This document shows positions 8,608 to 26,076 of a stretch of 46,862 bases of DNA, piece by piece. Positions within the stretch are counted from its first letter, which is position 1. The number at the start of each line of letters is the position of its first letter. The translations under genes and the position numbers were made by a program. The DNA is taken from positions 1 through 46,862 of the forward strand of contig JAJZSQ010000012.1 in assembly GCA_021849615.1 (NCBI GenBank), read 5' to 3'. Under the pieces are notes generated by a model. The model saw only the letters and a list, made by a program, of their open reading frames with translations, searched no databases and was not told the DNA's origin. Source of the DNA: Pseudomonadota bacterium (GTDB lineage: Bacteria > Pseudomonadota > Gammaproteobacteria > Steroidobacterales > Steroidobacteraceae).

Positions 8608-10554
8608 ATGGCGAGTCGCAATCGGTTCCGCGGGGCTCGGTGGGCGCGAGTCTTGCTCGCGCTGCTGTTGCCGCTCGCCGCCGCCGCGCACGCCGGTATC
8701 GCGCTGACCCTCCACGGCGTGCAGGGCAAGCTGCGCGCCAACGTGCTCGCGTACCTGAGTTTCGAGCGCTACAAGGACAGCAAGCACCTGGATGCCGCCA
8801 TCATTGAGCGGCTCGAGAACCGGGTGCAGAGCGAGGTGGACTCGGCGCTCGAGCCGTACGGGTACTTCCAGCCCACCGTCCATCCGACGGTCCGCCGCAC
8901 CGGAGCGGATCGCTGGCGCGTGGTGCTCGAGATCGATCCGGGCCCGCCGGTGCTGCTGCAGACGGTGGACGTCAAGGTCACCGGCGCCGGCGCCGGTGAT
9001 ACGCGCTTCACCCGCATCACCGATCATGTGTCGCTCAACTCCGGGCAGCGCCTGGACGAGGCGGCCTACGAGCGCCTCAAGGGCGAGCTGCTGCAGACCG
9101 CCGCGACCTATGGCTACCTCGATGCGCGCCTCACCCGCCACCAGATCCAGGTCGATCCGGCCAAGCGCCGCGCCAGCGTCTTTCTCACGCTCGCCACCGG
9201 TGCGCGCTACCGTTTTGGGTCGACGCAGATCGAGCAGCACGCGCTCACCGATGCGCTGGTGCGGCGCTATCTGCGCTATCGGCACGGGCAGCCGTTCGAC
9301 CTGACGCAGCTGCTGCGCACCCAGTTCGTGCTCGATGACACCGGCTACTTCTCCGATCTCGAGGTGGTGCCCGGCAAGCCCGACAAAGCCCGGCACACCG
9401 TGCCGGTGAACATCCGCGCCAATTCCAGCCGGCGCAACGTCTACTCCTTCGCCGCCGGCTACGCCACCGACACCGGCGCCCGCGGCATCGTCAGCTGGCA
9501 GGATCGGCGGGTGAACCGCGAGGGCGACCGGATGAGCGTCGACCTGGAGGCTGCGCAGCTGACCAAGTACAGCCTGCAGAGCCGCTACGTCATCCCGATC
9601 GGCGACCCGGCCACCGAGAATCTCACCTTCACCGCGAGCGTCGAGCAGCGCCAGCTCGCCGCGGTGGATGCGCGCACCATGACGTTCGGCGTGCACCTCA
9701 CCCGGGTGACGGGTCGCTGGCAGACCGTGTGGTTCCTCGATGCCATGCACGCCACCGGCTCGGTCAACGGGGCGATCTGCCCCGCCGGGGTCCTCAACGC
9801 CGCCGGTACGCAGTGCGAACTCGCCGGAGCGAACGTGGCGGCCCCCAACGCGGTCGCCAGCGTGGTCGGCAACATGCTCGTGCCGGGTGTGGAGATCACC
9901 TCGGTTCCGAGTGGGTATTTCGGTGAGCCGATTTTCGAGCACGGGGTGTCGATCGTGCTGCGCGGTTCGCACGGTGCGCTCGGCTCGCGGGCCGACTTTG
10001 TGCAGCTGCGCGTGCAGCTCGAACGGGTCTTCAACTTCGCTCCGCGCTGGCATCTGCTGCTGCGCGATGAGTTCGGGGCGACCGCCGCGTCGCACTTCAA
10101 CAACGTGCCGCCGGTGCTGCGCTTCTTTGCCGGCGGCGAAGGCAGCGTGCGCGGCTTCGAATACAACTCACTCTCGCCGACCCAGATCTTCTACGCCTCG
10201 GGCGCCTATCAGGTGAACAACGTCACCTACACCTGCTACGGCGGTACGGCCGCCCCGCAGAACGTGCCCAACCCTTCGCAGTGTCCGCTGCAACCGGTGC
10301 AGGCCGGTGGCAAGGACATGATCAGCGGCTCGGTGGAGATCGACCGCGACCTGCCGCACAACTTCGGCGTGGCGGCATTCTTCGACTACGGCAACGTGTT
10401 CAACAGCTTCCATGTTCCGCACCTGCTGCAGTACGGTGCCGGCATCGGATTTCGCGTGCGCCTGCCGGTGATGACGCTCGGCATCGACGTCGGCGAGCCG
10501 CTCTCGGAGCCGGGCAGCCCGCGTCTGTACATCAACTTCTCGCCGCGGCTATGA
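8608..10554 (+). CDS. tamA: Translocation and assembly module TamA (Omp85 family)
   Basis: 648 residues with an N-terminal signal peptide (hydrophobic core about residues 13-25, then A-A-H-A-G). POTRA domains follow to about residue 270 (V-D-V-K-V-T-G, tyrosine-rich Y-G-Y-L-D-A-R-L), then a 16-strand beta-barrel ending in L-Y-I-N-F-S-P-R-L. The Omp85 barrel motifs are visible: F-F-A-G-G-E-G-S-V-R-G-F (the G-x-x-x-V-R-G-[FY] motif) and F-F-D-Y-G-N-V-F near the end. With TamB it helps insert outer-membrane proteins and, by current work, carries phospholipid between membranes. A Cys-containing loop (about residues 390-410 and 535-560) is longer than in E. coli. tamB follows after 13 bases. Confidence 0.94.
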   Translation: MASRNRFRGARWARVLLALLLPLAAAAHAGIALTLHGVQGKLRANVLAYLSFERYKDSKHLDAAIIERLENRVQSEVDSALEPYGYFQPTVHPTVRRTGADRWRVVLEIDPGPPVLLQTVDVKVTGAGAGDTRFTRITDHVSLNSGQRLDEAAYERLKGELLQTAATYGYLDARLTRHQIQVDPAKRRASVFLTLATGARYRFGSTQIEQHALTDALVRRYLRYRHGQPFDLTQLLRTQFVLDDTGYFSDLEVVPGKPDKARHTVPVNIRANSSRRNVYSFAAGYATDTGARGIVSWQDRRVNREGDRMSVDLEAAQLTKYSLQSRYVIPIGDPATENLTFTASVEQRQLAAVDARTMTFGVHLTRVTGRWQTVWFLDAMHATGSVNGAICPAGVLNAAGTQCELAGANVAAPNAVASVVGNMLVPGVEITSVPSGYFGEPIFEHGVSIVLRGSHGALGSRADFVQLRVQLERVFNFAPRWHLLLRDEFGATAASHFNNVPPVLRFFAGGEGSVRGFEYNSLSPTQIFYASGAYQVNNVTYTCYGGTAAPQNVPNPSQCPLQPVQAGGKDMISGSVEIDRDLPHNFGVAAFFDYGNVFNSFHVPHLLQYGAGIGFRVRLPVMTLGIDVGEPLSEPGSPRLYINFSPRL

Positions 10555-10567
10555 GGAACGCTGAGCG

Positions 10568-13500
10568 ATGCGCCGGATTCTGATCTGGGGCGGTGTGCTG
10601 ATCGGCCTGGGCGCGGTGCTTCTCGGCGCGGCCGCGTACACCGTGTTTTACACCCAGGGCGGTCTGCGCTTCGTGGTGGCGCACCTGCCGCAGCGCTTCG
10701 GAACGGCCAAGGTGCGCATCGAGCAGGTGAGCGGCACGCTCGCCACGGGCGTACGCGCCGAGCGCGTACTGATCGATCAGCGGCACGTCTATCTGCGGTT
10801 CGATCACGTGTACACACGCGTGCATCTCTCGGCGCTCTCCTGGCACACGCTGATCAGTCCCGAGACCCGCATCCGCAGCGCGTACATCCGCGTCAAGCCG
10901 GTGCGGCCGCTGCCGGTGATTGCGCCGAAATTCCTGCCGTGGGGCCTGGACATCCGGGTGATGCACGCCCAGGTCGGCGCCGTGCAGCTGGTGCTCGAGA
11001 ACGGTCGGCGTCTCGAGGGCACCGGCCTCCGTGGCGCCGTGCAGATCGGGCATCGGGATCTGCACGTGACGGACTTCTCGCTGCGCATGGGACGGGCCAC
11101 GTACCACCTGGCGGCGGCGCTGCACGCGGCCCGGCCGCTGCAGCTCACCGTCGGCGGCGATTTCACCTGGAGCCCGCCGCGCCAGCCGCGCTGGCAAGGT
11201 CAACTGGCGCTGCGCGGCAACATCGCGGTCATGACGCTCACGGCGCACCTCGGCGCCCCGTTCTCCGCGGCGCTGCAGGGCACACTGCGCGATCAGCACG
11301 GTCGGTGGACCACGCAGAGTGAGCTCGGCATCCGCGGACTCGACCTGCCTGCCTGGCACCGCACCGGACGCTTCGGGCGCATCGCGGCGCAGCTGGCGCT
11401 CACCGGCGGCGTGCACGGCTTTCGTCTCGGCGGAACCGTCGATCCGCAGGGGCTGCACGCCGGTCTCTTTCACGTGCAGCTCGACGGTCGCTACGGCGCC
11501 GGCGTGCTCAGTGCGCGCCGTTTCGTGCTTGCGCATCCGGCCAGCGCCACGGTGCTGCGCGGCGCCGGCGCGGTGCGTTTCGGCGGCGGACGGCCGGATC
11601 TGCAGCTGCACGGCAGGTGGCGCGGGCTGCGGTGGCCGCTGAACGCCGCGGCTCGCGTGCGCAGCCCCTCGGGCGAATTCACGCTCAACGGCCGGTTCCC
11701 CTACGCTCTCGCCGCGCACGGACTCGCGCAGGTCGGTGCGGCACGGCCAGTGCCCGTGACGCTCGGGGCGACACTGACCGCGAGTGGCCTTGCCCTCCAA
11801 CACGCCACGGTGCGGATGCTCGGGGGTCAGATCGAGGCGCGCGGTGCGCTCGCCTGGACCCCCGTGAAGCGCTGGCGCGTGCACCTCACCGGCCGCAGCA
11901 TCGACCCGGCCCGGTTGCGCCCGGTGCTCAGCGGCCGGATCGGCTTCACCCTCACGGCCGCCGGCGAAGGCTTCGGCGCCGATGCGCCGCTGCGCGTGCG
12001 GCTCAAACGGTTGAACGGTCAGGTGCGCGGCCAGCCCGCCAGCGGCAGCGGCGAAGTGCGCCACGATCATGGCGCGTGGACGTTCCAACGATTGCACCTG
12101 GATCTGGGGCGCACGCGGCTCGCCGCCGATGGGCGGCTGGCGAGGCACGTGCACCTGCGGTTTGCACTGACGGGGGATCTGCAGCTGATCTCGAGCGCCG
12201 ATCGCGGCACCTTCACGGCGCATGGAACGATCGACGGGTCGCGGCGCGCGCCGCGCGTGAATGCGTGGCTCGCGGGTTCGGATCTGCACGCCGGGGCCAA
12301 CTCGCTCGCCGCCCTGCGGGCGCGCATCGACTTCGACCCGCGCCCGCAGCACCGCTCGCACGTGACGCTGCAGTTGCGAGAGCTGCACTCACGCCATCGC
12401 CTGCTGCGCAGTCTGGAGTTCGATCTCGCCGGACCGGCCGCGGCGCTGAGCGCGAGACTCGAGGTGAACGCTCCGGGACTGCACGCGGCAGCCCAGGCGT
12501 CCGGCAGCTTCGTCGCGGGGGTCTTCAACGGGCGCGTCACCTCGTTCAACGTGACCGGGCCGCAGTCGCTGCGTCTGCATCTGCGCGAACCGGCGCAGCT
12601 GACGCTCTCGCGGCAGCGCCGCGCGCTGGGCGCGCTGTGTCTGGAGGGGACGCCGGGCGCGCTGTGCACCGGTGCGACCTGGACCCCCGGGGGCTGGTCG
12701 GCCTATGTCAGCGCCAGCCAGCTGCCGCTGGCGACGCTCACCGCGGGCATGACCCCTGCGGTCGAATATCAAGGCACCCTCGGCGCGTCGCTCGAGCTCA
12801 CCGGCAGCGCCGGTAAGCCGCTGCAGGGCACGCTGCGCATGACGCTCGCGCACGGAGTGCTGTCGCGCAAACTCGTCAGCGGCACGGTCGAGCACACGAG
12901 CATCGGCTCGGGGTTGCTCACGGCGGTTGCCGGGCCCGGGACGATTCACGCACGAGCCTCGCTGACCGCCGGTGCGATCGGCACGTTCGACGCCGTGCTC
13001 GACATCCGGCGCGGTGCAGCCGATTGGCGCGCGATGCCGCTGACGGGCAGCCTCGAGGCGCGCACCGCCCGGTTGAATCTGGTCTCACTGTACCTGCCGG
13101 GCGTCGATGCCGTCTCCGGGGTGCTGCTCGCGCACGCCTCGTTCGGCGGAACGCTCGGGGATCCTCGTCTGCACGGCGCGGTGAAGATCGTCGATGCATC
13201 GGCTGACCTGTACCGCACCAACCTGCAGATGCGCCAACTCTCCCTGACGGCGCAGCTGGTGCAGAGCGGTCTGAGCTTCGTCGGCTCGGCGCAGGTCGGC
13301 AAGGGCACCCTGCATGCGACCGGTACGATGGGCTGGCACGACGGGGCGGCGAGCGGCGAGGTGCACCTGCGCGGCACCGATCTGCGCGTGGTGGATCTGC
13401 CCGAGGCGCGCATCGATGCCTCTCCGCAGCTCGATTTCCACCTGGTCGGCCACCGCATCGATGCCACCGGCAAGGTGCACATCACACATGCGCACATTGC

Positions 13501-14332
13501 GCCACGCAACTTCAGCGGCGCGGTGCGTACGTCGTCCGACCAGGTGATCGTGGGCGCGGAGTCCTCCAGCGCCGCGCATCGCTACCACGTGGTGAGCGTG
13601 ATCACGTTCGACCTCGGCCGGGATGTCGACATCGAGACGATGGGCCTCACCGGTCAATTGAGCGGTGCGATCACCGTCAGCAGCGGACTCGGCCAGGGCA
13701 CGACCGCCACGGGCGAGCTGTTCGTGCGCAAGGGACAGTATTCCGCCTACGCACGCCGACTGACGATCCAGACCGGCCGGCTGTTCTTCCGCGGCGGCCC
13801 GCTCGACAACCCCGGTATCGAGATCCGCGCCGTGCGCCGCTATCCGGACGTGACCGCGGGCATCAACGTCAGCGGCACGCTGAAACAGCCGCAAGTGTCG
13901 TTCTTTTCCAACCCGGCGCTCTCGCAGTCGCAGATCATGTCGCTCATCCTGTCCGGCGGCGGCGGCTCGCTGCAGGCCCTGCAGACGACCACCGGCGTGC
14001 AGAGCCGCCAGAGCACGGCCGCCAACGAGCTGCTGGCGCAGGGCGGCGCGATTCTGGCGCAGCAGCTCGGCTCGCGCATCGGCCTGCCGGACGTGAGCCT
14101 GCAGACCGACATGAACAACCAGACCTCCATCGTGCTCGGCAAGTATCTCTCGCCGCGCCTGTACGTCAGCTATGGCGTGGGCCTGACCGAGCAGTTGAGT
14201 GCCGTGCGGCTGCGCTACAGCATCGGCAAGCACTGGACGATCCGGCTCGAGGCCGGGCAGGGCAAGCTCGTCGGGCAGACCAAGAGCGGCGAGCTCGGCG
14301 GCGCCGACTTGGTGTTCACGGTGACCAAGTGA
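10568..14332 (+). CDS. tamB: Translocation and assembly module TamB (AsmA-like, DUF490)
   Basis: 1254 residues, typical of TamB. One N-terminal membrane anchor (L-I-W-G-G-V-L-I-G-L-G region, residues 4-27) is followed by a very long beta-rich repeat body, thought to form a lipid-conducting groove across the periplasm, and the conserved C-terminal DUF490 domain (L-S-G-A-I-T-V, G-x-L-F-V-R-K-G-Q-Y, G-G-P-L-D-N-P-G-I-E-I-R-A, L-Y-V-S-Y-G-V-G-L). The last part docks onto TamA. It is in an operon with tamA. Its stop lies 4 bases before the -35 of the arginine operon promoter, and I see no terminator between them. Confidence 0.94.
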   Translation: MRRILIWGGVLIGLGAVLLGAAAYTVFYTQGGLRFVVAHLPQRFGTAKVRIEQVSGTLATGVRAERVLIDQRHVYLRFDHVYTRVHLSALSWHTLISPETRIRSAYIRVKPVRPLPVIAPKFLPWGLDIRVMHAQVGAVQLVLENGRRLEGTGLRGAVQIGHRDLHVTDFSLRMGRATYHLAAALHAARPLQLTVGGDFTWSPPRQPRWQGQLALRGNIAVMTLTAHLGAPFSAALQGTLRDQHGRWTTQSELGIRGLDLPAWHRTGRFGRIAAQLALTGGVHGFRLGGTVDPQGLHAGLFHVQLDGRYGAGVLSARRFVLAHPASATVLRGAGAVRFGGGRPDLQLHGRWRGLRWPLNAAARVRSPSGEFTLNGRFPYALAAHGLAQVGAARPVPVTLGATLTASGLALQHATVRMLGGQIEARGALAWTPVKRWRVHLTGRSIDPARLRPVLSGRIGFTLTAAGEGFGADAPLRVRLKRLNGQVRGQPASGSGEVRHDHGAWTFQRLHLDLGRTRLAADGRLARHVHLRFALTGDLQLISSADRGTFTAHGTIDGSRRAPRVNAWLAGSDLHAGANSLAALRARIDFDPRPQHRSHVTLQLRELHSRHRLLRSLEFDLAGPAAALSARLEVNAPGLHAAAQASGSFVAGVFNGRVTSFNVTGPQSLRLHLREPAQLTLSRQRRALGALCLEGTPGALCTGATWTPGGWSAYVSASQLPLATLTAGMTPAVEYQGTLGASLELTGSAGKPLQGTLRMTLAHGVLSRKLVSGTVEHTSIGSGLLTAVAGPGTIHARASLTAGAIGTFDAVLDIRRGAADWRAMPLTGSLEARTARLNLVSLYLPGVDAVSGVLLAHASFGGTLGDPRLHGAVKIVDASADLYRTNLQMRQLSLTAQLVQSGLSFVGSAQVGKGTLHATGTMGWHDGAASGEVHLRGTDLRVVDLPEARIDASPQLDFHLVGHRIDATGKVHITHAHIAPRNFSGAVRTSSDQVIVGAESSSAAHRYHVVSVITFDLGRDVDIETMGLTGQLSGAITVSSGLGQGTTATGELFVRKGQYSAYARRLTIQTGRLFFRGGPLDNPGIEIRAVRRYPDVTAGINVSGTLKQPQVSFFSNPALSQSQIMSLILSGGGGSLQALQTTTGVQSRQSTAANELLAQGGAILAQQLGSRIGLPDVSLQTDMNNQTSIVLGKYLSPRLYVSYGVGLTEQLSAVRLRYSIGKHWTIRLEAGQGKLVGQTKSGELGGADLVFTVTK

Positions 14333-14335
14333 GGC

Positions 14336-14363
14336 TTGACGTGCGTGAATTATTATTCATAAT
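14336..14363 (+). promoter_or_regulatory. Sigma-70 promoter of the arginine operon
   Basis: TTGACG (14336-14341), a 16-base spacer, and CATAAT (14358-14363), both five of six to consensus. Transcription would start near 14370, about 38 bases before the argR ATG. The spacer and the -10 lie inside the ARG boxes, so bound ArgR would block RNA polymerase. Confidence 0.78.
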
Positions 14364-14407: not shown

Positions 14408-14854
14408 ATGGACGCTCAGCAGCTCGAACGCCGCCAGGCGGTGGTGCGCATTCTGCGCAGCGGGGTGGTGCACCGGCAGGAGGACCTGGTGCGGTTGCTG
14501 CGCGAAGAGGGCTACGAGGTGACGCAGTCCTCCATCAGCCGCGATCTGCGCGACCTCGGCGTACTCAAGGCGAGCGGCCGCTACGTGCTGCCGCCCGACG
14601 AGGTCTCGCGCACCCAGAGTGATTTCGCCATGCTCGCGCAGTTCGTGCGCGAGCTGAAGCGGGCCGGCACCTCGTTGACGGTGCTGCGCACGACGATCGG
14701 CGCCGCCCAGAGCGTCGCGGTCGCAATCGACCGGGCCGAGTGGCCCGAGGTGGCCGGCACCCTCTCCGGAGACGACACGATCTTCATCGCCACCGCCGAT
14801 GGCCGCGCGCAGGAACAGCTGATCGCGCGGCTGCAGGCGCTCTTTCGGATCTGA
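14408..14854 (+). CDS. argR: Arginine repressor ArgR
   Basis: 148 residues. The N-terminal winged helix carries the canonical S-S-I-S-R-D-L-R-D-L-G recognition helix (about residues 39-49). The C-terminal half forms the hexamer and binds L-arginine (T-T-I-G-A-A-Q-S-V-A motif and G-D-D-T-I-F-I-A-T). It controls arginine synthesis genes in response to arginine. It is the first gene of the cluster and lies directly behind two ARG boxes, so it very likely represses itself and the downstream genes. argG follows after 4 bases. Confidence 0.95.
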   Translation: MDAQQLERRQAVVRILRSGVVHRQEDLVRLLREEGYEVTQSSISRDLRDLGVLKASGRYVLPPDEVSRTQSDFAMLAQFVRELKRAGTSLTVLRTTIGAAQSVAVAIDRAEWPEVAGTLSGDDTIFIATADGRAQEQLIARLQALFRI

Positions 14855-14858
14855 ACGC

Positions 14859-16103
14859 ATGTCTACAACCTCGACTTCGGGCGCAGAGCCCATTGTTCTC
14901 GCCTATTCCGGCGGCCTCGACACCTCTTTCCTGGTGCCTTGGCTGAAGGAGACGTACGGGCGGCCCGTGATCACGGTCACCGTCGACACTGGCGGCATCG
15001 ACGCCGAGGCGGCGCGCACGCTCGCCGAGCGCGCCCGCGCGCTCGGCGCGATCGATCATCATCAGGTCGATGCGCGCGAGGCGTACTTCGAGCAGGTCCT
15101 GCGCTTTCTCATCATGGGCAACGTCAAGCGCGGTCAGCTCTATCCGCTGTGCGTCGGCGCTGAGCGGGTCATGCAGGCGCAGACCATCGCGCACATGGCG
15201 CGTAAGCTTGGCACCCGCATGATCGCGCACGGCTGCACCGCTGCCGGCAACGACCAGGTGCGCTTCGAAGTCGCCATGCGTACGCTGGCGCCGGACTTGG
15301 AAGTGCTCGCCCCGGTGCGTGACCGGGCGTTCAAGCGCGCCGAGGAACTCGCATTCCTGAAGGAACGCGCGCTGCCGGTGCCCCCGTTCGGAGCGGCGTA
15401 CTCGATCAACCGCGGCCTATGGGGCGTGACCATCGGCGGGCAAGAAACCCTCACCTCGGGTGGCAGCATTCCGGAGGAGGCGTGGGTGTTGACCCGCGAG
15501 GCGTTCAGCCGCGCGCGCGCGCCCGAGACCCACACGATCGCCTTCGAGCGCGGCCGCCCGACCAGTCTTGATGGCCGCTCGCTCACGCCCGTGGCGCTCA
15601 TCGAGGCGCTCGAGGCGCTGGCCGCGCCGTTCGGCATCGGTCGCGGGATCCATCTCGGCGACACCATCATCGGCACCAAAGGCCGGGTCGCGTTCGAGGC
15701 ACCGGCCGCCGAAGTGCTGCTCAGCGCACATCGCGAACTGGAGAAGCTGGTGCTGACCCCCCGCCAGCAGCGCATCAAGGATCTGGTGGCGCAACCGTAC
15801 GGGGACTGGGTGCACGAGGGGCAGCTGCTCGATCCGGTGTGCCGCGACATCGAAGCGCTGCTCGAATCCTCCCAGGAGCGCCTCAGCGGCACGGTGCGCA
15901 TCGCTTTGCGCCCGGGCAACCTGTTCATCGAGGGCGTCGAATCTCCGTACTCGCTGATGAGCGCCTCGAAGGGGGTCTATGGCGAGGCCGCCGGGGAGTG
16001 GACGCCCCAGGATGCGCTCGGATTCTCCAAGATCGTCGCACTCACCGGCGTATTTCACCGCCGTGCCGGGGAACGCGCCGCGGGCGGTGCGGGAGGTCAG
16101 TGA
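14859..16103 (+). CDS. argG: Argininosuccinate synthase
   Basis: 414 residues. The enzyme joins citrulline and aspartate with ATP to make argininosuccinate, the seventh step of arginine synthesis. The PP-loop ATP site V-L-A-Y-S-G-G-L-D-T-S is near the N-terminus, then N-V-K-R-G-Q-L-Y-P-L, A-H-G-C-T-A-A-G-N-D-Q-V-R-F and Y-S-I-N-R-G-L-W-G. From memory, the blocks after the PP-loop (Y-P-L-C-V-G-A-E-R, A-K/R-Y-S-I-N-K/R-G-L-W-G) resemble the Bacteroidetes form more than the E. coli or Xanthomonas forms. The next gene begins one base after the stop. Confidence 0.94.
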   Translation: MSTTSTSGAEPIVLAYSGGLDTSFLVPWLKETYGRPVITVTVDTGGIDAEAARTLAERARALGAIDHHQVDAREAYFEQVLRFLIMGNVKRGQLYPLCVGAERVMQAQTIAHMARKLGTRMIAHGCTAAGNDQVRFEVAMRTLAPDLEVLAPVRDRAFKRAEELAFLKERALPVPPFGAAYSINRGLWGVTIGGQETLTSGGSIPEEAWVLTREAFSRARAPETHTIAFERGRPTSLDGRSLTPVALIEALEALAAPFGIGRGIHLGDTIIGTKGRVAFEAPAAEVLLSAHRELEKLVLTPRQQRIKDLVAQPYGDWVHEGQLLDPVCRDIEALLESSQERLSGTVRIALRPGNLFIEGVESPYSLMSASKGVYGEAAGEWTPQDALGFSKIVALTGVFHRRAGERAAGGAGGQ

Positions 16104-16104
16104 C

Positions 16105-17181
16105 ATGAGCAACGGAATGCGCAGCGTCGTCGTCGACAAGATCGCCTCGGTGGCCCAGGCCTGCGGCCTCTCGCGAGAGGTGCGCATCGCGCCGGAGATC
16201 CCCGCCGAGGAAGGCGTGGTGATCGTCGTCGAGGTGCTCACCAACAAGTCGACGTACAACACCCTGGAGTTGACCAGCGGCCGCATGGCCAAAGTGCGCA
16301 AGGGCGACATCGTGGTCGGCGCGCTCGGTCACCGTAAGGCGCTGTTTGGCTACTCCGGGCACATCCCCCCGACGGTCAAGCCGGGCGATGTGATCCAGAT
16401 GCTCAACATCGGCGGGGTGCTCGGCGCGTGCGACTCGATCAATCCGGACAAGGGGCAGCCGTTCGACTGCCGCGTGCTCGGGGTGGTGCTGCGCTTCCCT
16501 TACCTCGGTGAGCGGATCGGCGTGCCGGCCCGCGTCGGCATCCGCCCGCTCGACCAGGCGGCCGCCCTCGAGACGCGCGCCGTCCCGGTGGTGGCGCTGG
16601 CCGGTACCTGCATGGAAGCGGGCAAGACCGCCGCGGCCTGCGCCATGATCAGCCGCATGCGGCACCGTGGCCTGACGGTCGATGCGTTCAAGGCCACCGG
16701 CGTCTCGCTGCGCCGCGACATCATGGCCATGGAGGATGCCGGCGCGCGCCGCTCGGCGATCTTCACCGACTTCGGCGTCGTCACCACCACCCGGCACAAT
16801 GGCCCGGCACTGACCCGCACCATGCTGACGGAGCTGTCCGCCGGCCGGCCCGAGGTCATCGTGTTCGAGCTCGGCGACGGCATTCTCGGCACGTACGGGG
16901 TGGATGCCATCCTCGAGTGCCCGGACATCCGCTCCGCGCTCACCGCGGTGGTGCTCTCGGCCAACGACCCGGTCGCCGCCTGGGGTGGGGTGAAGCTGCT
17001 GCGCGAGCGCTTCGGGATCGAGCCATGCGTGGTGACCGGGCCGGCGACCGACAACCAGGTCGGCATCGACCTGATCACCGAGCAGCTGAAGGTGCCGGCC
17101 TTCAATGCGATCAGCGATGGCGCCTCGCTCGGTGATCACGTGATGAAGGCCGTGGGACTCGCGGCGGGATCGCCGCCGTGA
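16105..17181 (+). CDS. Unrecognised P-loop protein inside the arginine operon (distant DUF1611-like appearance)
   Basis: 358 residues. The N-terminal part (1-150) is beta-rich (K-V-R-K-G-D-I-V-V-G-A-L-G, G-Y-S-G-H-I-P-P). The C-terminal part is a nucleotide-binding fold with A-G-T-C-M-E-A-G-K-T as Walker A (about residues 167-176), then F-K-A-T-G, F-T-D-F-G-V and V-F-E-L-G-D-G. The G-T-x-x-x-x-G-K-T plus A-T-G pattern recalls DUF1611 proteins, one of which (DgcN) has been described as a D-glutamate N-acetyltransferase, but the likeness is distant. A GGAGG lies nine bases before ATG 16105; argG ends one base before, and the stop overlaps the GTG of argC by four bases. Such tight packing argues for a role in arginine synthesis. 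The operon lacks a gene for the first step (N-acylglutamate synthase), so that is the leading guess; a kinase, ligase or regulatory role is also possible. Confidence 0.85.
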   Translation: MSNGMRSVVVDKIASVAQACGLSREVRIAPEIPAEEGVVIVVEVLTNKSTYNTLELTSGRMAKVRKGDIVVGALGHRKALFGYSGHIPPTVKPGDVIQMLNIGGVLGACDSINPDKGQPFDCRVLGVVLRFPYLGERIGVPARVGIRPLDQAAALETRAVPVVALAGTCMEAGKTAAACAMISRMRHRGLTVDAFKATGVSLRRDIMAMEDAGARRSAIFTDFGVVTTTRHNGPALTRTMLTELSAGRPEVIVFELGDGILGTYGVDAILECPDIRSALTAVVLSANDPVAAWGGVKLLRERFGIEPCVVTGPATDNQVGIDLITEQLKVPAFNAISDGASLGDHVMKAVGLAAGSPP

Positions 17182-18239
17182 GCGCAACCATTCCGGCGGT
17201 GGTGCTCGGTGGGACGGGGTACGTGGCCGGGGAGCTGTTGCGGCTGCTCGCGGGACATCCGCGTCTGCGGGTTGCGGCGGTCATGTCCGACAGCCAGCCC
17301 GGTGAGCCGCTCGCGTCGGCCTTCCCGCACCTCGCCGCCGCGTACGAGCCGATGTGCTTCGAGTCGCAGGAGCACGTGCGCTCGCTGCTGACTCGCGAGC
17401 CGGTGTGCGCGCTGTTCTCTGCGGCGCCGCACGGGGTGTCGGCGCCGCTGATCGACTCGCTGCTCGGCGCGGCCGCCGCCGCCGGCACCCGGCCGCGCGT
17501 CGTGGACATCTCGGCGGATTTCAGGTTCCGCTCGGCCGAGGACTACGCTGCGGTCTACAAACACCCGCACGGCGCGCCTGGACGGCTCGGGCAATTCACC
17601 TGCGCGGTGCCGGAACATCACACCGAACTCACCACCGAACACGTTGCGCATCCGGGCTGCTTCGCCACCGCGGTGCTGCTCGCCAGCGTACCGCTGCTCA
17701 CTCTGGGTCTGGTCCGGCCGCAGCTGTTCGTCGCCGGCGTCACCGGCAGCACCGGCTCGGGCCGCAAGCCCACCCCGGGCACGCACCATCCGGTGCGTCA
17801 CAGCGACCTGTATGCCTACAGTGCGCTCGCTCACCGGCACGCACCGGAGATCGCCGCGTGCGCCCGTGCCGCGAGCGGCGTCGACGCCGAGTTCGCCTTC
17901 ATCCCGCATTCCGGGCCGTTCGCCCGCGGCATCCACGTGACGGTGCAGGCAATCCTCTCACGCCCGCTCGGCACCGCGGATCTGCTCGGCGCGCTGCGGG
18001 AGTTCTATGCGCGCGCGCCGTTCGTGCGGGTCCTCGAGGGCGCCCCGCGCATCAAGGACGTCACGGCGAGCAACTACGCCCATCTGGGCGTCGCCAGCGA
18101 CGGACGGACCCTCGCGGTCATGTGCGCCATCGACAATCTGACCAAGGGCGCCGCCGGCGGCGCCGTGCAATGGATGAACCGGATGCTGGGCCTGCCCGAG
18201 ACCGAAGGTCTCAGCGCGCCCGCACCGGGTTGGACCTGA
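17178..18239 (+). CDS. argC: N-acyl-gamma-glutamyl-phosphate reductase
   Basis: 353 residues. The enzyme reduces N-acyl-glutamyl-5-phosphate to the semialdehyde with NADPH. Seen: the dinucleotide motif L-G-G-T-G-Y-V-A-G-E-L-L-R-L-L, the active-site Cys in H-P-G-C-F-A-T-A, G-S-T-G-S-G-R-K-P, F-I-P-H-S-G-P-F-A-R-G-I and I-D-N-L-T-K-G-A-A-G-G-A near the end. The H-P-G-C-F-A-T-A form (instead of N-P-G-C-Y-P-T) and the F-I-P-x-x-x-x-F-x-R-G-I block recall the Bacteroides enzyme. Start GTG 17178 overlaps the preceding stop (GTGA). Standard name N-acetyl-gamma-glutamyl-phosphate reductase; the acyl group here may be succinyl (see argF'). Confidence 0.93.
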   Translation: MSATIPAVVLGGTGYVAGELLRLLAGHPRLRVAAVMSDSQPGEPLASAFPHLAAAYEPMCFESQEHVRSLLTREPVCALFSAAPHGVSAPLIDSLLGAAAAAGTRPRVVDISADFRFRSAEDYAAVYKHPHGAPGRLGQFTCAVPEHHTELTTEHVAHPGCFATAVLLASVPLLTLGLVRPQLFVAGVTGSTGSGRKPTPGTHHPVRHSDLYAYSALAHRHAPEIAACARAASGVDAEFAFIPHSGPFARGIHVTVQAILSRPLGTADLLGALREFYARAPFVRVLEGAPRIKDVTASNYAHLGVASDGRTLAVMCAIDNLTKGAAGGAVQWMNRMLGLPETEGLSAPAPGWT

Positions 18240-18252
18240 CACGAGAATCCCC

Positions 18253-19425
18253 ATGACCGCATCGCCGCAAGCGACTTCCGCTCCCGCGCCGCACAAGTCC
18301 GTGCTCGCGCCCGTGTACGCGCAGTATCCGTTCGAGGTGACTCGTGCCGAGGGCGTCTGGCTCATCGGTCCGGGCGGCGAGCGGGTCCTCGACCTCTACG
18401 GCGGGCACGCGGTCGCCGCGCTCGGCTACGGCGATGCCCACTGGAGCGACGCGCTCGCTGAACAGGCGCGCACCTGCCAGTTCCAGACCAACGCGTTGCC
18501 CATGAGCGTGCGCGAGCACGCCGCGCAGCGACTGCTCGAGTTCGCGCAGCTGCCATTCGCCAGTGTCTTCATGGTCAACAGCGGCGCGGAGGCCAACGAG
18601 AATGCCCTGCGTCTGGCGCTGCGCATGAGCGGTCGGTCGCACGTGGCGGCGGTCGAGGGCGCCTTTCACGGCCGCACCGCGGCGGCCTCGACCGTCACGT
18701 GGGGATCGCAAAGCTGGTACGGGTTTCCGCGCACGCCCTTCGACGTCAGCTTCCTGCCGCGCGGGGATCTGCAGGCGATCGACGCTGAGGTCACCGAGCG
18801 GACCGCGGCCGTCATCGTCGAGCCGGTGCAGGGGCTCGCCGGGGCGGTCGACCTCGGAGCGCCGTATCTGGCTGCGCTGCGCGCGCGCTGCGACGCGGTG
18901 GGCGCGCAGCTGATTTTCGACGAGGTGCAGTGCGGATTCGGCCGAGTCGGGGTGCCCTACGCCGCGGGCCTCTACGGCGTGATGCCCGATATGCTCACCA
19001 CCGCCAAGGCGCTCGGCAACGGCTTCCCGGTCGCTGCGCTGCTGACCTCGGCGCAGGTCTCGGCGACGCTGAAGGTCGGGCTGCTCGGCACCACCTACGG
19101 CGGTGGCCCGATGGCCTGCGCCGCGCTGCTCGCGACGATCGAGGCCATCGAGTCCGGGCGGCTGCTCGAGAACGTGCGGCGCGTGTCGGCCTACATCCGG
19201 CGCACCTGTCTCACCGGGCCGGTGAGCGCCGTGCAGGGTGAGGGCTTTCTGCTCGGACTGCGCACCCGCCGGCCCGCCAAGCAGATTCAGGCCGAGCTGC
19301 TGCGCCGCGGCATTCTCACCGGCACCGCGAGCGATCCGGACGTGGTGCGACTGCTGCCGCCGTTCATCCTGCAGGAAGCGCAGGTTGATCTGCTGAGCGG
19401 AGCACTGGCGGACCTCGGCGCATGA
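18253..19425 (+). CDS. argD: N-acylornithine aminotransferase
   Basis: 390 residues, a class III PLP aminotransferase. It converts N-acyl-glutamate semialdehyde to N-acylornithine using glutamate. Seen: V-N-S-G-A-E-A-N-E-N-A-L (PLP phosphate and substrate region), G-A-F-H-G-R-T, F-D-E-V-Q-C-G-F-G-R (Asp binding the PLP ring nitrogen), and the Schiff-base Lys in T-T-A-K-A-L-G-N-G-F-P-V. The TGA overlaps the ATG of argF' by four bases, so the two are translationally coupled. Acyl preference cannot be read from the sequence. Confidence 0.93.
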   Translation: MTASPQATSAPAPHKSVLAPVYAQYPFEVTRAEGVWLIGPGGERVLDLYGGHAVAALGYGDAHWSDALAEQARTCQFQTNALPMSVREHAAQRLLEFAQLPFASVFMVNSGAEANENALRLALRMSGRSHVAAVEGAFHGRTAAASTVTWGSQSWYGFPRTPFDVSFLPRGDLQAIDAEVTERTAAVIVEPVQGLAGAVDLGAPYLAALRARCDAVGAQLIFDEVQCGFGRVGVPYAAGLYGVMPDMLTTAKALGNGFPVAALLTSAQVSATLKVGLLGTTYGGGPMACAALLATIEAIESGRLLENVRRVSAYIRRTCLTGPVSAVQGEGFLLGLRTRRPAKQIQAELLRRGILTGTASDPDVVRLLPPFILQEAQVDLLSGALADLGA

Positions 19426-20423
19426 AACGCCTGCTCGATCTGGCTGACCTCGAGCGCGAGGAGGTGCTCGCGCTGCTCGCGCTCGCCGCGCGCCTGCAGC
19501 ACAAGGGCGAGCCGCAGGCGCTCGCCGGGAAGATTCTCGGGCTGCTGTTCATGAACCCCTCGTTGCGCACGCTCGCCTCGTTCCAGGCCGGCATGGCGCG
19601 CCTCGGCGGCAGTTCGTTCGTCATTACGCCGGGGCAGGGCACGTGGCAGCTCGAGACGCGCACCGGGGCGGTGATGGACGGTGCGGCGGCGGAGCACGCG
19701 CGCGAAGGGATCCCGGTGCTCGCCTCCTACTGCGATGCGCTCGGCATCCGGGCGTTTGCCTCCGGGCAGGATCTGGCCGCCGATCTGGCCGAGACGACCT
19801 TCAACACGCTCGCGGCGCTCACCGACAAGCCGCTGATCAACCTCGAGTCGGCGGTCAACCATCCCTGCCAGGCGCTGGCGGACTGGAAGACGCTCGATGA
19901 CCTGGCCGTGGCGCCGACGGGGCGGTTCGTCCTCTCCTGGGCGTATCATCCGCGGCCGCTGCCGCTGGCAGTGCCCGCAGCGGTACTGCACATGGCGGCC
20001 CTGCGCGGCATGGAGGTCGTGGTGCTGCGGCCCGAGGGATTCGCGCTGCCCGAGCCGATCATGGCCAAGGCGCGCCGTGCCGCAGTCCTCGCCGGCGGAT
20101 CGGTGCGCGAGAGTGACGATCGGCGCGAGGCGCTCGCCGGCGCTCAGGTCCTCTACGTGAAAGAATGGGCCGCCACCGCGTGCTACGGCGATGCGGCCGA
20201 GGATGCACGCCGGCGTGCCGCACTCACCGACTGGTGCGTGCGTGAGGACTGGTTCGAGCCGGCCACGCGCGACTGCCGTCTGATGCACTGCCTTCCCGTG
20301 CGCCGCAACGTCGCGGTCGCCGACGAGGTGCTCGACGGTCCGCGCAGCATCGTGCAGCACGAGGCGTACAATCGCCTCACGGTCCAGATGGCGGTGTTGT
20401 ACCGCCTGCTCAAGGGGCTGTAA
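19422..20423 (+). CDS. argF': N-acylornithine carbamoyltransferase, N-succinylornithine type likely
   Basis: 333 residues. The enzyme would transfer the carbamoyl group of carbamoyl phosphate to an N-acylornithine, giving N-acylcitrulline. Seen: N-P-S-L-R-T (carbamoyl-phosphate loop, residues 45-50), T-W-Q-L-E-T ... G-A-V-M-D-G, A-Y-H-P-R-P-L-P-L-A-V-P and H-C-L-P-V-R-R-N-V. The W-x-x-x-P-R-P-L and H-C-L-P-V/L-R-R-N blocks mark the acylornithine branch, not ornithine carbamoyltransferase. Residue 90 chooses the substrate in this branch: Glu (Glu92 in Xanthomonas) for acetylornithine, Pro90 in the Bacteroides succinylornithine enzyme; published Ala, Ser, Val and Pro replacements of that Glu switch to succinyl. 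Here it is Ala90 (codon 19689-19691) in M-D-G-A-A-A-E-H. The second Arg of the usual S-x-R-T-R is Leu51, which is odd. argB follows after 47 bases. Confidence 0.9.
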   Translation: MKRLLDLADLEREEVLALLALAARLQHKGEPQALAGKILGLLFMNPSLRTLASFQAGMARLGGSSFVITPGQGTWQLETRTGAVMDGAAAEHAREGIPVLASYCDALGIRAFASGQDLAADLAETTFNTLAALTDKPLINLESAVNHPCQALADWKTLDDLAVAPTGRFVLSWAYHPRPLPLAVPAAVLHMAALRGMEVVVLRPEGFALPEPIMAKARRAAVLAGGSVRESDDRREALAGAQVLYVKEWAATACYGDAAEDARRRAALTDWCVREDWFEPATRDCRLMHCLPVRRNVAVADEVLDGPRSIVQHEAYNRLTVQMAVLYRLLKGL

Positions 20424-20470: not shown

Positions 20471-21409
20471 ATGATCATGCAACCCGCCGACCAGGCATTG
20501 GCCATCCGTGCACTGAAAAGCGCCGCACCCTACATCCGCATGTACCGCGGCAAGACCTTCGTGGTGAAGGCCGGTGGCGGCGTATTCGGCGATGACGCCT
20601 CGACTCGCGTGCTCATCGAACAGATCGCGATCCTGCATTACTTCGGCGTGCGCGTCGTGTTCGTGCACGGCGGCGGGCCGCAGGTCACCGAGCTGGCACG
20701 CGCCCTCGGCGTCAACTCGCGCATGGTCGAAGGCCGCCGGGTCACCGACAGAGAAGCGATTGACGTCACCGCGATGGTGCTCAACGGCACGATCAACACC
20801 GGCATCCTCGCTATCTGCCGCGAACTGAACCTCGAGGCGGTCGGGGTGAGCGGCGTCGATGCCGGCCTGATCCGCGCGCACCGCCGTCCGCCGGTGCGTC
20901 TGGCCTCGAGCGGCGAGATCCTCGACTATGGTTTCGTCGGCGACATCGACGCGGTCGATCCGACCGTGCTCAGCAAGCTGCTCGACAACGGCCTGATGCC
21001 GGTCGTGAGCCCGCTGTCGGCCGACGACGACGGCGTTCTGCTCAACGTCAACGCCGATACGGTGGCCGCGGCGATCGCCGCGGCGCTCGATGCCGAGAAG
21101 CTGATTCTGTGCACCGGCGCGCCGGGCATCCTCGCGAACCTCGAGGATCCCGGTTCGCTCATTTCCTACACGGACCTCGAAGGGCTCGCCCGGCTGCGCG
21201 AGGACGGCGCGATCGGCGATGGCATGCTGCCGAAAGCGACAGCGATCGAGGCGGCGATCCGCGGCGGTGTGCGGCGCGTGCACGTGGTGTCCTACCAGGC
21301 GCCCGAAGGCATCCTCGGCGAGGTGTTCACCAACGAGGGAACCGGGACGCTGATCGTCGAGGACATCGATGCGCTGACGCCGGCTGAACAGAGCGGCGCA
21401 GGAGCGTAG
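20471..21409 (+). CDS. argB: N-acylglutamate kinase
   Basis: 312 residues, amino-acid-kinase fold. It phosphorylates N-acyl-glutamate with ATP, the second step of the pathway. Seen: V-V-K-A-G-G-G-V-F (in most homologues K-x-G-G), F-V-H-G-G-G-P-Q-V, the V-N-A-D-T-V-A-A-A-I-A block and the end block G-G-V-R-R-V-H-V-V. ATG codons at 20471 and 20477 are both possible. argH follows after two bases. Confidence 0.92.
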   Translation: MIMQPADQALAIRALKSAAPYIRMYRGKTFVVKAGGGVFGDDASTRVLIEQIAILHYFGVRVVFVHGGGPQVTELARALGVNSRMVEGRRVTDREAIDVTAMVLNGTINTGILAICRELNLEAVGVSGVDAGLIRAHRRPPVRLASSGEILDYGFVGDIDAVDPTVLSKLLDNGLMPVVSPLSADDDGVLLNVNADTVAAAIAAALDAEKLILCTGAPGILANLEDPGSLISYTDLEGLARLREDGAIGDGMLPKATAIEAAIRGGVRRVHVVSYQAPEGILGEVFTNEGTGTLIVEDIDALTPAEQSGAGA

Positions 21410-21411
21410 GC

Positions 21412-22602
21412 ATGAGCCGGCTGTGGGACAAGGGTGCGCCGCTCGATGAGCGCGTACTGCGCTACACCGCCGGCGAGGACTACGGACTCGATGAGCGCCT
21501 GGTAGCCTATGACGTGCGCGCCTCGATCGCGCACGCCGAGATGCTCAGCGCGCAGGGTCTGCTCGGGGCCGATGATCTCACCGCCATCCGCACTGCGCTG
21601 ACTGCGCTCGCCGCCGAGCACGAACGCGGGCTGTGGCGCATCGAGCTGGCCGACGAGGATGGTCAGACCGCGCTCGAGCGCCGGCTGACCGAACGCATCG
21701 GGCCGGCCGGCGGTCGGGTTCATCTGGGGCGCTCGCGCAACGATCAGGTGCTGACCGCGCTCAGGCTGTATCTGCGCGACGCGGTCGAGCGGCTGCACGT
21801 CGGCGCCGTCGAGGTTGCCGAGAGCCTCGAGCGTCTCGGCGCGCGCGAGCAGGCCACCGCACTGCCCGGCTACACGCACATGCAGCAGGCCATGCCGAGC
21901 TCGGTCCCGTTGTGGGCCGGCGGGTTCGCCGCCGAGATCCGCGATGACGCCGACGCGCTGCGCCACGTGCACCGCCGCCTCGCGAAGAGCCCGCTCGGCT
22001 CGGCGGCCGGTTACGGAACGCCCGGGCTGCCGCTCGACCGGAACGCTACGCGCGCTGCCCTCGGATTTGCCGAGGTGCACGAACCGGTCACGGCGGTGCA
22101 GCTCTCGCGCGGCAAGGCCGAGGCGGAACTGCTCTTTCACCTCTGCCTGCTGATGCAGGATCTGGGGCGACTGGCCGCCGACGTACTGCTCTTTTATACG
22201 CAGGAGTTCGCCTTCGTCGAGTTGCCCGAGGCCTTCACCACGGGCTCCTCGATCATGCCGCAGAAGCGCAATCCGGACGTGTTCGAACTGATCCGCGGCC
22301 GCTCCGCCACCGCCCAGGCTTGCCTCACCGAGGCGCTCGCGGTGTGCGCGAAGCTGCCCTCCGGTTACCAGCGCGACCTGCAGCTGTTGAAATTCCCGCT
22401 GTTCCGTGCGATCGACGTGGCCGAGGAAACGCTCGGCATCCTGCCGGCCGCGCTCGAGGCGATGCGGTTCCGGCCGGAGCGGATCGCGCTCGATCCGGCC
22501 ATCCACGCCGCCGAGCAGGCGAACCGCCTGGTGGTGCGCGAGGGTATTCCGTTCCGCGAAGCCTACCGGCGCGTCGCGGCGGAACTGAAAGGGTCGCGCT
22601 GA
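21412..22602 (+). CDS. argH: Argininosuccinate lyase (short)
   Basis: 396 residues. The enzyme splits argininosuccinate into arginine and fumarate. The fumarase-superfamily signature G-S-S-I-M-P-Q-K-R-N-P-D is present (about residue 277), as are H-L-G-R-S-R-N-D-Q and the G-Y-T-H-M-Q-Q-A-M-P block. It is some 40-60 residues shorter than common bacterial ArgH because the C-terminus stops soon after G-I-P-F-R-E-A-Y. No acetyltransferase (ArgA-like) domain is fused. It is the last gene of the operon and a GC-rich hairpin follows. Confidence 0.93.
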   Translation: MSRLWDKGAPLDERVLRYTAGEDYGLDERLVAYDVRASIAHAEMLSAQGLLGADDLTAIRTALTALAAEHERGLWRIELADEDGQTALERRLTERIGPAGGRVHLGRSRNDQVLTALRLYLRDAVERLHVGAVEVAESLERLGAREQATALPGYTHMQQAMPSSVPLWAGGFAAEIRDDADALRHVHRRLAKSPLGSAAGYGTPGLPLDRNATRAALGFAEVHEPVTAVQLSRGKAEAELLFHLCLLMQDLGRLAADVLLFYTQEFAFVELPEAFTTGSSIMPQKRNPDVFELIRGRSATAQACLTEALAVCAKLPSGYQRDLQLLKFPLFRAIDVAEETLGILPAALEAMRFRPERIALDPAIHAAEQANRLVVREGIPFREAYRRVAAELKGSR

Positions 22603-24177: not shown

Positions 24178-24219
24178 GCGGCTCGGCCGCCACCGCGGCG
24201 CTTGAGGCATAATCACCCC

Positions 24220-25332
24220 GTGACCGCCCAGGTTCGATCCGACGGCATGACGCAGCACGCGCTCTCGGACGGCACGTTCCGCGGTGCCGGCGACTCCTTT
24301 TATCTGCCGAACTTCTGTGCCTCGCGCGCCGCGGTCGCCGTCGTGGTGATCGTGGAGCTCACCGCCATCGTCCTGTCCATTGCACGCAGCGACTCGGCGG
24401 ACTTCTGGTCCGAGCTCGCGCGCAGCTCCCTGTTTCTGCTCTGGGTCGGGCTGGTGTGTGCCGCGCTGCTGTGTGCGCTGCGGCCGGCTCTGGCGCGCCT
24501 CGGCGCTGCCCGCGGCTCCGGCGCGGTGCTGGTGCTGCTCACCGCGGCGGTGGCCGGGATTTCCTTCGGGGTCGGCCTACTCGGGCACAGCCGGCTGCTC
24601 GCGGGCGCCGCCGTGCTCTTCCCGCACCGCATCGGCTCGTTCGTGCTGCGCAACACGGCGATCGGCTTCGTGATCGCCGCCGTTGCGCTGCGCTACTTCT
24701 ACGTCACGGACCAATGGCGGCGTAACATCGAGCTGCGCGCCGCGGCACGCGTGCATGCGCTGCAGGCCCGCATCCGTCCGCATTTCCTCTTCAACAGCAT
24801 GAACACCATCGCGGCGCTGACGCGCTCCTCGCCGCCGCAGGCCGAGCAAGCAGTGCAGGACCTTGCCGATCTGTTCCGCGCCTCGCTCGCCGATCCGCGC
24901 CAGACGATCACGCTCGCCGATGAGTTGGAAATCGCGCGCACCTACCAGCGCATCGAGCAGCTGCGGCTCGGCAGCCGGCTCGAGGTCATCTGGGAGGTCG
25001 AGGCGTTGCCCGGCGATGCGCGCGTGCCCGGTCTGTTGCTGCAGCCGTTGCTGGAGAATGCGATCTACCACGGTATCGAGCCGCGCACCGCCGGCGGTGC
25101 GGTACACATCCGTGGGGAGCGCTCCGGGGAGCTGATTTCGGTCGTCGTGCGCAATCCGCTCGGCGCGCCGCCCGCAACGCGCCAGGGCAACCATCTGGCG
25201 CTCGAGAACATCCGCGAACGGCTGGCGCTGCTGTACGGCACGCGGGCGCTGGTGAAGGCCGGCGCCTTCGGCGAGGAATACATCGTGACGCTGCGTTTCC
25301 CGTACGTCGCCGCGGCCGCGGTGACGGTCTGA
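24220..25332 (+). CDS. algZ: Sensor histidine kinase, LytS/AlgZ (FimS) type
   Basis: About 370 residues. Four hydrophobic segments make up the N-terminal half; the cytoplasmic part carries R-I-R-P-H-F-L-F-N-S-M-N, whose His is the phosphorylation site, and a GHKL ATPase with L-L-Q-P-L-L-E-N-A-I-Y-H-G-I. The R-x-R-P-H-F-L-F-N form is that of AlgZ. Start is uncertain: GTG 24220 has GAGG twelve bases upstream, ATG 24247 lacks a ribosome site, TTG 24202 is also open. The response regulator gene follows after 12 bases. In Pseudomonas, algZ-algR lie next to argH; here only mmsA separates them. Confidence 0.85.
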   Translation: MTAQVRSDGMTQHALSDGTFRGAGDSFYLPNFCASRAAVAVVVIVELTAIVLSIARSDSADFWSELARSSLFLLWVGLVCAALLCALRPALARLGAARGSGAVLVLLTAAVAGISFGVGLLGHSRLLAGAAVLFPHRIGSFVLRNTAIGFVIAAVALRYFYVTDQWRRNIELRAAARVHALQARIRPHFLFNSMNTIAALTRSSPPQAEQAVQDLADLFRASLADPRQTITLADELEIARTYQRIEQLRLGSRLEVIWEVEALPGDARVPGLLLQPLLENAIYHGIEPRTAGGAVHIRGERSGELISVVVRNPLGAPPATRQGNHLALENIRERLALLYGTRALVKAGAFGEEYIVTLRFPYVAAAAVTV

Positions 25333-25344
25333 GGGACCGGGGCC

Positions 25345-26076
25345 ATGCTGCGCGTGCTGATCGTCGATGATGAAACGCCGGCGCGCGCGCGCCTCGGTCA
25401 GCTGCTCGCGGAGATCGGCGGCGCGGAGCTGATCGGCGAGGCGGCGAGCGGACCGGAGGCGCTCGAGCAGGCCATGCGGCTGACGCCGGATGTGGTGCTG
25501 CTCGATGTGCGCATGCCCGGCATGGACGGCCTGGAAACCGCCCGGCATCTGAGTGAGCTCGGCGAGCCGCCGGCGGTCATCTTCACCACCGCGTACGACC
25601 AGTATGCGCTGAACGCCTTCGAGACTCGTGCAGCGGGCTACCTGCTGAAGCCGGTGCGCAAAGACAAACTCGCCGCCGCGCTCGAGCAGGCGGGGCGTCT
25701 GACGCGCGCGCAGCTGCAGCGCCTGGCCGCGGCAGCCGGCGCGCCCGGCCGGACCCACATCGCGGTGCGCCGGCGTGAGCAACTGCGGTTGATTCCGCTC
25801 GAGCAGATCCTGTACTTCCAGGCCGACCAGAAGTACACCACCGTGCGCCATGCCGGTGGTGAGGACCTGATCGAGGAGTCGCTGCGCACCCTGGAGGAGG
25901 AGCTCGGGGCACGTTTCGTGCGCATCCACCGCAATACGCTCGTCAACGCCGCGCACCTCGAGGGCATCGAGCGCAGCGAGGACGGCCGTTACAGCGTGCG
26001 CCTCGCCGGCCTCGCCGTGCCGTTGCCGGTGAGCCGCCGTCTGGCCGGCGAGCTGCTCGAGCGCTTCCGGATCTGA
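25345..26076 (+). CDS. algR: LytTR-family response regulator, AlgR type
   Basis: 243 residues. Receiver domain 1-120 with acidic pair D8-D9 (I-V-D-D-E), phospho-acceptor Asp54 (V-L-L-D-V-R-M-P-G-M-D-G) and L-L-K-P-V. A LytTR DNA-binding domain occupies about 140-243 (I-L-Y-F-Q-A-D-Q-K-Y-T-T-V, F-V-R-I-H-R-N-T-L-V-N). It is the partner of the kinase just upstream. In pseudomonads this pair controls alginate, twitching motility and virulence; its targets here are unknown. Confidence 0.9.
   Translation: MLRVLIVDDETPARARLGQLLAEIGGAELIGEAASGPEALEQAMRLTPDVVLLDVRMPGMDGLETARHLSELGEPPAVIFTTAYDQYALNAFETRAAGYLLKPVRKDKLAAALEQAGRLTRAQLQRLAAAAGAPGRTHIAVRRREQLRLIPLEQILYFQADQKYTTVRHAGGEDLIEESLRTLEEELGARFVRIHRNTLVNAAHLEGIERSEDGRYSVRLAGLAVPLPVSRRLAGELLERFRI

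Follow-up and report, generated by a model that had tools for sequence, protein, structure and literature searches.

Arginine synthesis is committed at its first step, and missing synthases are a recognised gap in genome annotation. Among the closest described systems is a predicted succinylated arginine route of Bacteroides (BT3761, BT3717, and BT3549), which two papers describe with an N-succinylornithine transcarbamylase and a DapE-related desuccinylase (PMC7311316, PMC4581275) and with a BT3761 that is >50% identical to the N-acetylglutamate synthase Cabys_1732 (PMC7311316). Acetylornithine transcarbamylases are marked by Glu92, Asn185, and Lys302, while the succinyl type has A/S/P/V/Q, P, and V/I/E, respectively, at these positions, according to a review (PMC4581275). 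In this study, we describe a gene, named X, at positions 16105–17181 of contig JAJZSQ010000012.1 from a Steroidobacteraceae assembly (GCA_021849615.1); the whole stretch analysed, 46,862 nucleotides in length, is called the window. From comparisons of sequences, X is proposed to encode a new, non-homologous N-acyl-L-glutamate synthase, whichever acyl group it transfers, with a probability of about 0.75.

X and the first step of arginine synthesis

X is part of an operon with the gene order argR-argG-X-argC-argD-argF'-argB-argH (Table 1). Its open reading frame (ORF) begins with ATG at 16105, one base after the argG stop codon (which ends at 16103), and ends with TGA at 17179–17181, overlapping by four bases (GTGA) the GTG start codon of argC at 17178. 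The coordinates thus confirmed the placement of X given in the original prediction, and family matches confirmed the operon content that it listed, including the lack of argA, argJ, argE, and a GNAT-type synthase within the operon. The argB product fits the kinase model and stops after it, with no GNAT part.

X was matched at E ≤ 1e-5 in 251 of the 296 genomes sampled from the order. Sorted by hand, these matches comprised 238 strong ones, 3 contig-end fragments, and 10 genomes with distant paralogues only, leaving X orthologs in 241/296 genomes. Gene neighbourhoods were compared in a first set of 50 loci and in a second set of the best 80 of 413 relatives, 13 of which repeat genes of the first set; 20 X loci of the order, hand-picked for diversity, were taken with long flanks. 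X was between argG and argC in 49 of the 50 loci (the remaining one reaches a contig end). The same held for 76 of the 80, the others being three contig ends and one locus with argG 422 bases upstream. The survey of homologues that had been suggested with the prediction placed X beside these two neighbours in nearly all of the loci examined. The complete eight-gene order was found in 19 of the 20 diverse loci (one is cut by its contig) and in 57 of the 80 loci in the second set (in the other 23, one or more of the eight genes is not covered or not matched). Moreover, X was the best conserved of the eight operon proteins, with a mean identity to the window of 68.7%. Judged by title, almost all second-set records were metagenome assemblies, assigned to Steroidobacteraceae or to unplaced proteobacteria; Peristeroidobacter agariperforans KA5-B (NZ_RYFW01000001.1, L129) was a named strain with X. 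Among plasmid records, 7 contained distant relatives, all of <60% identity. X operons of this order were also present in three assemblies titled Klebsiella pneumoniae or Janthinobacterium lividum (L080, L113, and L133), which are probably mislabelled metagenome bins. The aligned X region contained one in-frame stop codon in L027 and L028 and in genomes G111, G115, G118, G123, G152, G259, and G277. For L027 and L028, a stop near the N-terminus seems to be included in the alignment, so that the true start is probably further in.

Known synthases were sought as ArgA (TIGR01890), ArgJ (PF01960), and the GNAT domain of the fused synthase-kinase (PF04768, NAT). The assembly containing the window (3.19 Mb, 218 contigs, 87% complete) had no match to PF01960 or PF04768 and none above cut-off to TIGR01890. 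Checking the rest of the genome, as the original prediction had proposed, thus revealed neither argA nor argJ, and the M20 enzymes found were DapE, above cut-off, and one other protein below every cut-off listed. ArgA was above cut-off in none of the 296 genomes of the order, versus one of 14 control genomes. Matches to TIGR01890 below the cut-off were read as ArgB and not as ArgA, as they covered the kinase part (query 2 to about 280–292). Except for a fragment of 49 positions, ArgJ was also absent from the 296 genomes; this fragment (G181, contig C24, 20–169) is at a contig end and could be contamination. NAT was found in 22 of the 296 genomes, and an X ortholog and NAT never occurred together (0/296; Fisher p 1.4e-18, ignoring relatedness). 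Of the 33 genomes with neither, 29 had no match of ArgB strength and seem to lack the early pathway. Six loci were taken from NAT genomes, and the readable ones had, by eye, the order argF'-argG-argE-NAGSK-argC-argH. For instance, the acetylornithine deacetylase, the fused N-acetylglutamate synthase-kinase (NAGS-K; NF003387), and the acetylornithine carbamoyltransferase of the NAT genome at L190 were all above cut-off.

In a sample of the phylum, X was matched in 5 of 349 genomes, including that of the window. One of these, G563, belongs to another class and has a strong match of 619 bits. ArgJ was found in 58 of the 59 genomes of its family, and G563, which is rated 100% complete in 40 contigs, was the sole genome without ArgJ as well as the only one with an X ortholog; two others had distant paralogues. 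In G563, X is in the locus argR-X-argC-argB (L176), whose genes are 54–71% identical to those of the window, with argC and argB above cut-off; argB and argC were compared with the loci of this analysis only. X of G563 was probably gained by horizontal transfer, and argR-X-argC-argB was perhaps transferred as one module. The carbamoyltransferase of G563 is an ordinary ornithine carbamoyltransferase (33% identity; TIGR00658 above cut-off), so that this module represents the early part of the route. We regard G563 as the strongest single argument for X catalysing step 1. Together with the mutual exclusion of X and NAT, it supports the earlier suggestion that X is a candidate for a new type of N-acylglutamate synthase.

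Fold and wider family of X

The protein encoded by X, analysed as 358 amino acid residues, was not above the cut-off of any family in Pfam or NCBIfam, the two libraries used. Its GTxxxxGKT loop and ATG motif, both noted in the original prediction, were seen as GTCMEAGKT and KATG. In an alignment of 97 X-family proteins, 11 distant paralogues among them, G167, M170, G173, K174, and T175 of the P-loop, K196 and G199 of KATG, and E255 of a third motif, ELGDG, were invariant, while L256, G257, D258, and G259 were each conserved in at least 90%. The likeness to DUF1611/DgcN that had been claimed held for the P-loop fold of the predicted structure but not for the family profile, where X scored 16.7 bits over 41 residues of PF07755 against a Pfam gathering cut-off of 25. 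PF07755 was matched at E ≤ 1 by 17 of 31 X orthologs, with a best E-value of 0.0013. Membership of X in DUF1611 was rejected because the match is below Pfam's cut-off and only the fold agrees. No GNAT family was found among Pfam matches up to E 10 or NCBIfam matches up to E 1, no bioD match was listed in NCBIfam up to E 1, X had no match to PF01960, and no PDB sequence matched the profile of the 31 X orthologs at E ≤ 10. Elsewhere in the assembly, another PF07755 match (L001) proved to be a true bioD (TIGR00347 164.5 versus a cut-off of 83.3).

A structure model from 31 sequences had a poor N-terminal half and a mean predicted local distance difference test (pLDDT) score of 75.7, while that from 97 sequences, paralogues included, reached a mean pLDDT of 94.7 and a predicted template modelling (pTM) score of 0.90. 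The C-terminal half is predicted to be a P-loop domain with the fold of dethiobiotin synthetase, CTP synthase, and DUF1611/DgcN, and the N-terminal half is predicted to be additional and mostly beta. Foldseek ranked dethiobiotin synthetase first. Alignments of X with the DUF1611/DgcN structures begin near model residue 58.

The alignments of two paralogue groups to X span about 300 residues (hhalign E 1.9e-42 and 9e-32). Members of one group, about 340 amino acid residues long, are encoded directly downstream of an M20-like gene in five loci (Table 1). The M20 protein of L180 is above Pfam's cut-off, and its nearest hydrolase models are PRK07338 and glutamate carboxypeptidase, both matched below cut-off. 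In L180 the M20 gene follows a flavin-reductase-like gene, a third gene that was also seen, by eye only, in L182 and L188. At L179 (2395–10347), a paralogue of the second group lies about 1.5 kb away from a cluster of the arginine succinyltransferase pathway (astC, M20 hydrolase, astD, and astB). By eye, neither astA nor astE was seen beside this cluster in the ORFs listed, so that the paralogue and the M20 protein could stand in for them. A further relative, annotated as hypothetical, is in a phosphonate-like biosynthetic cluster of the Priestia megaterium plasmid NZ_CP085446.1 (L243, 2730–11418) that also encodes an ornithine carbamoyltransferase, two ATP-grasp proteins, a PEP-mutase family protein, and an M20 peptidase. 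Two paralogues of the second group are within 8 kb of each other in one genome (L185, 6071–7237 on the minus strand and 12618–13733 on the plus strand). The M20 neighbours of the first group and the cluster in P. megaterium are compatible with, but do not establish, a family that N-acylates amino acids and is paired with deacylases. If X is an N-succinyl-L-glutamate synthase, the wider X family would represent a large and so far unrecognised group of enzymes that N-acylate amino acids.

Acyl group, proposed route, and rival explanations

The ArgF' signature was A/P/A in 69 and A/P/V in 17 of the 86 X loci scored (84 distinct); one further X locus was dropped because its match misses the three positions. 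Thus, the first two residues were of the succinyl type in 86/86, and the third residue in the window is Ala. In contrast, the six loci from NAT genomes all had E/N/K, the acetyl type. Moreover, ArgF' of a NAT genome scored 565.2 on NF003384 (N-acetylornithine carbamoyltransferase) versus 343.6 for that of the window. Six loci without X also had Ala in ArgF'; they come from X genomes in which the stretch examined did not include a full X.

All eight X genomes that were searched for M20 enzymes contained DapE (7/7 single-contig genomes and that of the window). In two of the single-contig genomes, G070 and G029, no full-length M20 protein besides DapE was present. All M20 proteins were compared in five single-contig X genomes, four of which had none closest to ArgE, while G065 and G221 had many matches, of which 6/13 and 6/11, respectively, were compared. 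Beside the operon, no deacylase was found among the recurrent clusters of flanking ORFs in 20 loci, though this listing is rough, as real ORFs are displaced in it by spurious overlapping ones.

In the proposed route, X would acylate L-glutamate, most likely with succinyl, its P-loop binding either ATP or the phosphates of CoA. The product would be handed to ArgB and ArgC and then to ArgD and ArgF', which would make N-succinylcitrulline. A desuccinylase, possibly DapE, would free citrulline for ArgG and ArgH. DapE may serve both lysine and arginine, which would explain the missing argE. We rather favour succinyl as the acyl group of the route. The full combination, in which a P-loop N-succinyl-L-glutamate synthase starts a wholly succinylated arginine route, DapE is shared with lysine, and the X family is N-acylating, is offered tentatively, at somewhat less than even odds. 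Here the reaction and its acyl donor, what the P-loop does, the desuccinylase, and the horizontal transfer are all predicted from genomes. Both this kind of reaction and a succinylated route have been described elsewhere, and a P-loop enzyme in that place would be the new part; no paper naming this gene or a P-loop N-acylglutamate synthase was found in the open-licence literature searched. If X has this function, a new unrelated type of enzyme would close the gap for a large, mostly uncultured gammaproteobacterial group, whose members could otherwise be annotated as arginine auxotrophs. It would also extend the succinylated arginine route from Bacteroidetes to another phylum and give a nameless P-loop family a testable function.

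Several results weigh against X as a synthase or against succinyl as its substrate group. Because the genomes share ancestry and the whole gene order differs between the two operon types, the exclusion of X and NAT represents few independent events. G563 is likewise one event, and ArgJ, which is absent there, can do two jobs. As X operons lack both synthase and deacylase and ArgJ can do the work of both, the profile alone is silent on which gap X fills. Four draft assemblies of about 160–480 contigs (G100, G131, G189, and G192; 4/296) have a match of ArgB strength and neither X nor NAT. The known synthases sought were ArgA, ArgJ, and NAT only; the short NAGS, ArgO, Cg3035, and Cabys_1732 types were not searched. 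In the fold comparison, CTP synthase, DUF1611, and dethiobiotin synthetase tie with DgcN, so the fold does not single out acyltransferases. The use of succinyl, which the original prediction had mentioned, agrees with two of the three ArgF' residues; the third, however, is Ala in 69/86, which the review (PMC4581275) lists for neither type. ArgF' of the window is also above the NF003384 cut-off of 288, the X genome G088 encodes an M20 enzyme whose closest match was ArgE (30% identity), and the ordinary carbamoyltransferase of G563 means that X there is not tied to a succinyl transcarbamylase.

Other readings were also weighed. X might be a synthase as proposed but make N-acetylglutamate for an acetylated route in which the ArgF' residues have drifted; this is a form of the main proposal, and its likelihood is counted within that of the synthase. 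The NCBIfam name of ArgF', the ordinary carbamoyltransferase beside X in G563, and the title of DgcN as an N-acetyltransferase agree with this version. It is nevertheless doubtful given the Ala and Pro of all 86 X loci against the Glu and Asn of all six NAT loci, and given that G088 alone among the five fully compared single-contig genomes has an M20 protein nearest to ArgE, at 30% identity. X might also be an analogue of ArgJ, a transacylase returning the acyl group from N-acylcitrulline or N-acylornithine to glutamate and filling both gaps. That the NAT-type operons read contain both the synthase and the deacylase that X operons lack, that X is present in G563, which lacks ArgJ, a family able to do both, and that G070 and G029 have only DapE as a full-length M20 protein would all fit. 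A purely cyclic route, however, would depend on a primer synthase, and the types searched for gave none. The donor would also differ, acylcitrulline in the order but acylornithine in G563, because the carbamoyltransferase of the latter is ordinary, and a P-loop is not expected in a CoA-free transacylase. We consider a transacylase quite unlikely.

The remaining functions are less probable still. As a deacylase working with an unseen synthase elsewhere, X would account for the operon without argE and for the lack of ArgE among the two M20 proteins of the 87% complete assembly. This is very unlikely: X of G563 is grouped with the genes for steps 2 and 3 (argC and argB) instead of late genes, the fold of X is of the P-loop synthetase type, and paralogues of X adjoin an M20 hydrolase gene, so that the family apparently does not take the M20 role itself. 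Least likely of all is a regulator or an assembly factor of arginine enzymes, although HypB and ApbC share the P-loop fold: the operon already has ArgR, step 1 would be left without a known enzyme in 241 genomes, and the absence of ArgJ from G563 would be unexplained.

Features of the window and comparison with known systems

The features are listed in Table 1. The promoter search ahead of argR gave one site versus 0.4 expected in shuffles. By eye from translations, a TamA/TamB-like pair is upstream of the operon (8608–14332), and a pair of a sensor kinase and a LytTR-type response regulator is downstream (24202–26076).

Table 1. Coordinates of the arg operon of the window and of paralogue loci (positions are those of the window unless a locus is named).
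Feature	Position	Strand	Basis
Sigma-70-like promoter match ahead of argR	14336..14363	+	Consensus match only
argR, arginine repressor	14408..14854	+	TIGR01529 116.5 bits, below cut-off 130.45
argG, argininosuccinate synthase	14859..16103	+	TIGR00032 above cut-off
X, candidate N-acyl-L-glutamate synthase, 358 aa	16105..17181	+	ORF, motifs, conservation in order
P-loop GTCMEAGKT of X, residues 167-175	16603..16629	+	Alignment of 97 proteins
KATG motif of X, residues 196-199	16690..16701	+	Alignment of 97 proteins
ELGDG motif of X, residues 255-259	16867..16881	+	Alignment of 97 proteins
argC, N-acyl-gamma-glutamyl-phosphate reductase	17178..18239	+	TIGR01850 above cut-off
argD-like acylornithine aminotransferase	18253..19425	+	TIGR00707 298 bits, below cut-off 410
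argF', transcarbamylase related to N-acetyl-/N-succinylornithine transcarbamylases, predicted succinyl type	19422..20423	+	NF003384 above cut-off; PDB matches, signature residues
Ala90 of ArgF', equivalent of Glu92 of X. campestris acetylornithine transcarbamylase (AOTCase)	19689..19691	+	
Pro181 of ArgF', equivalent of Asn185 of X. campestris AOTCase	19962..19964	+	
Ala298 of ArgF', equivalent of Lys302 of X. campestris AOTCase	20313..20315	+	
argB, N-acylglutamate kinase, 312 aa, without GNAT domain	20471..21409	+	TIGR00761 above cut-off
argH, argininosuccinate lyase	21412..22602	+	TIGR00838 above cut-off
Paralogue and M20-like gene, L177	9133..11341		
Paralogue and M20-like gene, L180	9247..12042		
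Paralogue and M20-like gene, L181	9537..11725		
Paralogue and M20-like gene, L182	5891..8678		
Paralogue and M20-like gene, L188	9426..12366		

Similar to what is proposed for X, NAGS-K of sister families in the same order catalyses the first pathway step and is encoded in an arg operon with argF'. Different from NAGS-K, in which a GNAT fold is fused to the kinase, X is a separate P-loop protein without a GNAT match, and its operon has another gene order and no argE, whereas the NAGS-K operon has argE and an acetyl-type ArgF'. ArgJ is distinguished by PF01960, which X does not match, and X is present in G563 where ArgJ is absent. The identities between X and DgcN, a D-glutamate N-acetyltransferase, and other DUF1611 structures (PDB 7xrj, 2g0t, and 2obn) were 11–13%, and the substrate of X would be L-glutamate instead of D-glutamate. 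Dethiobiotin synthetase and the amidoligase domain of CTP synthase, the best Foldseek and VIA matches of X, have the P-loop fold and the GTxxxxGKT loop in common with it. X differs from both by the extra, mostly beta N-terminal half, the arginine context, and the lack of a family match above cut-off. Finally, the Bacteroides route resembles the one proposed here in its N-succinylornithine transcarbamylase and its DapE-related desuccinylase, while BT3761, with its identity to Cabys_1732, would be a different synthase from X.
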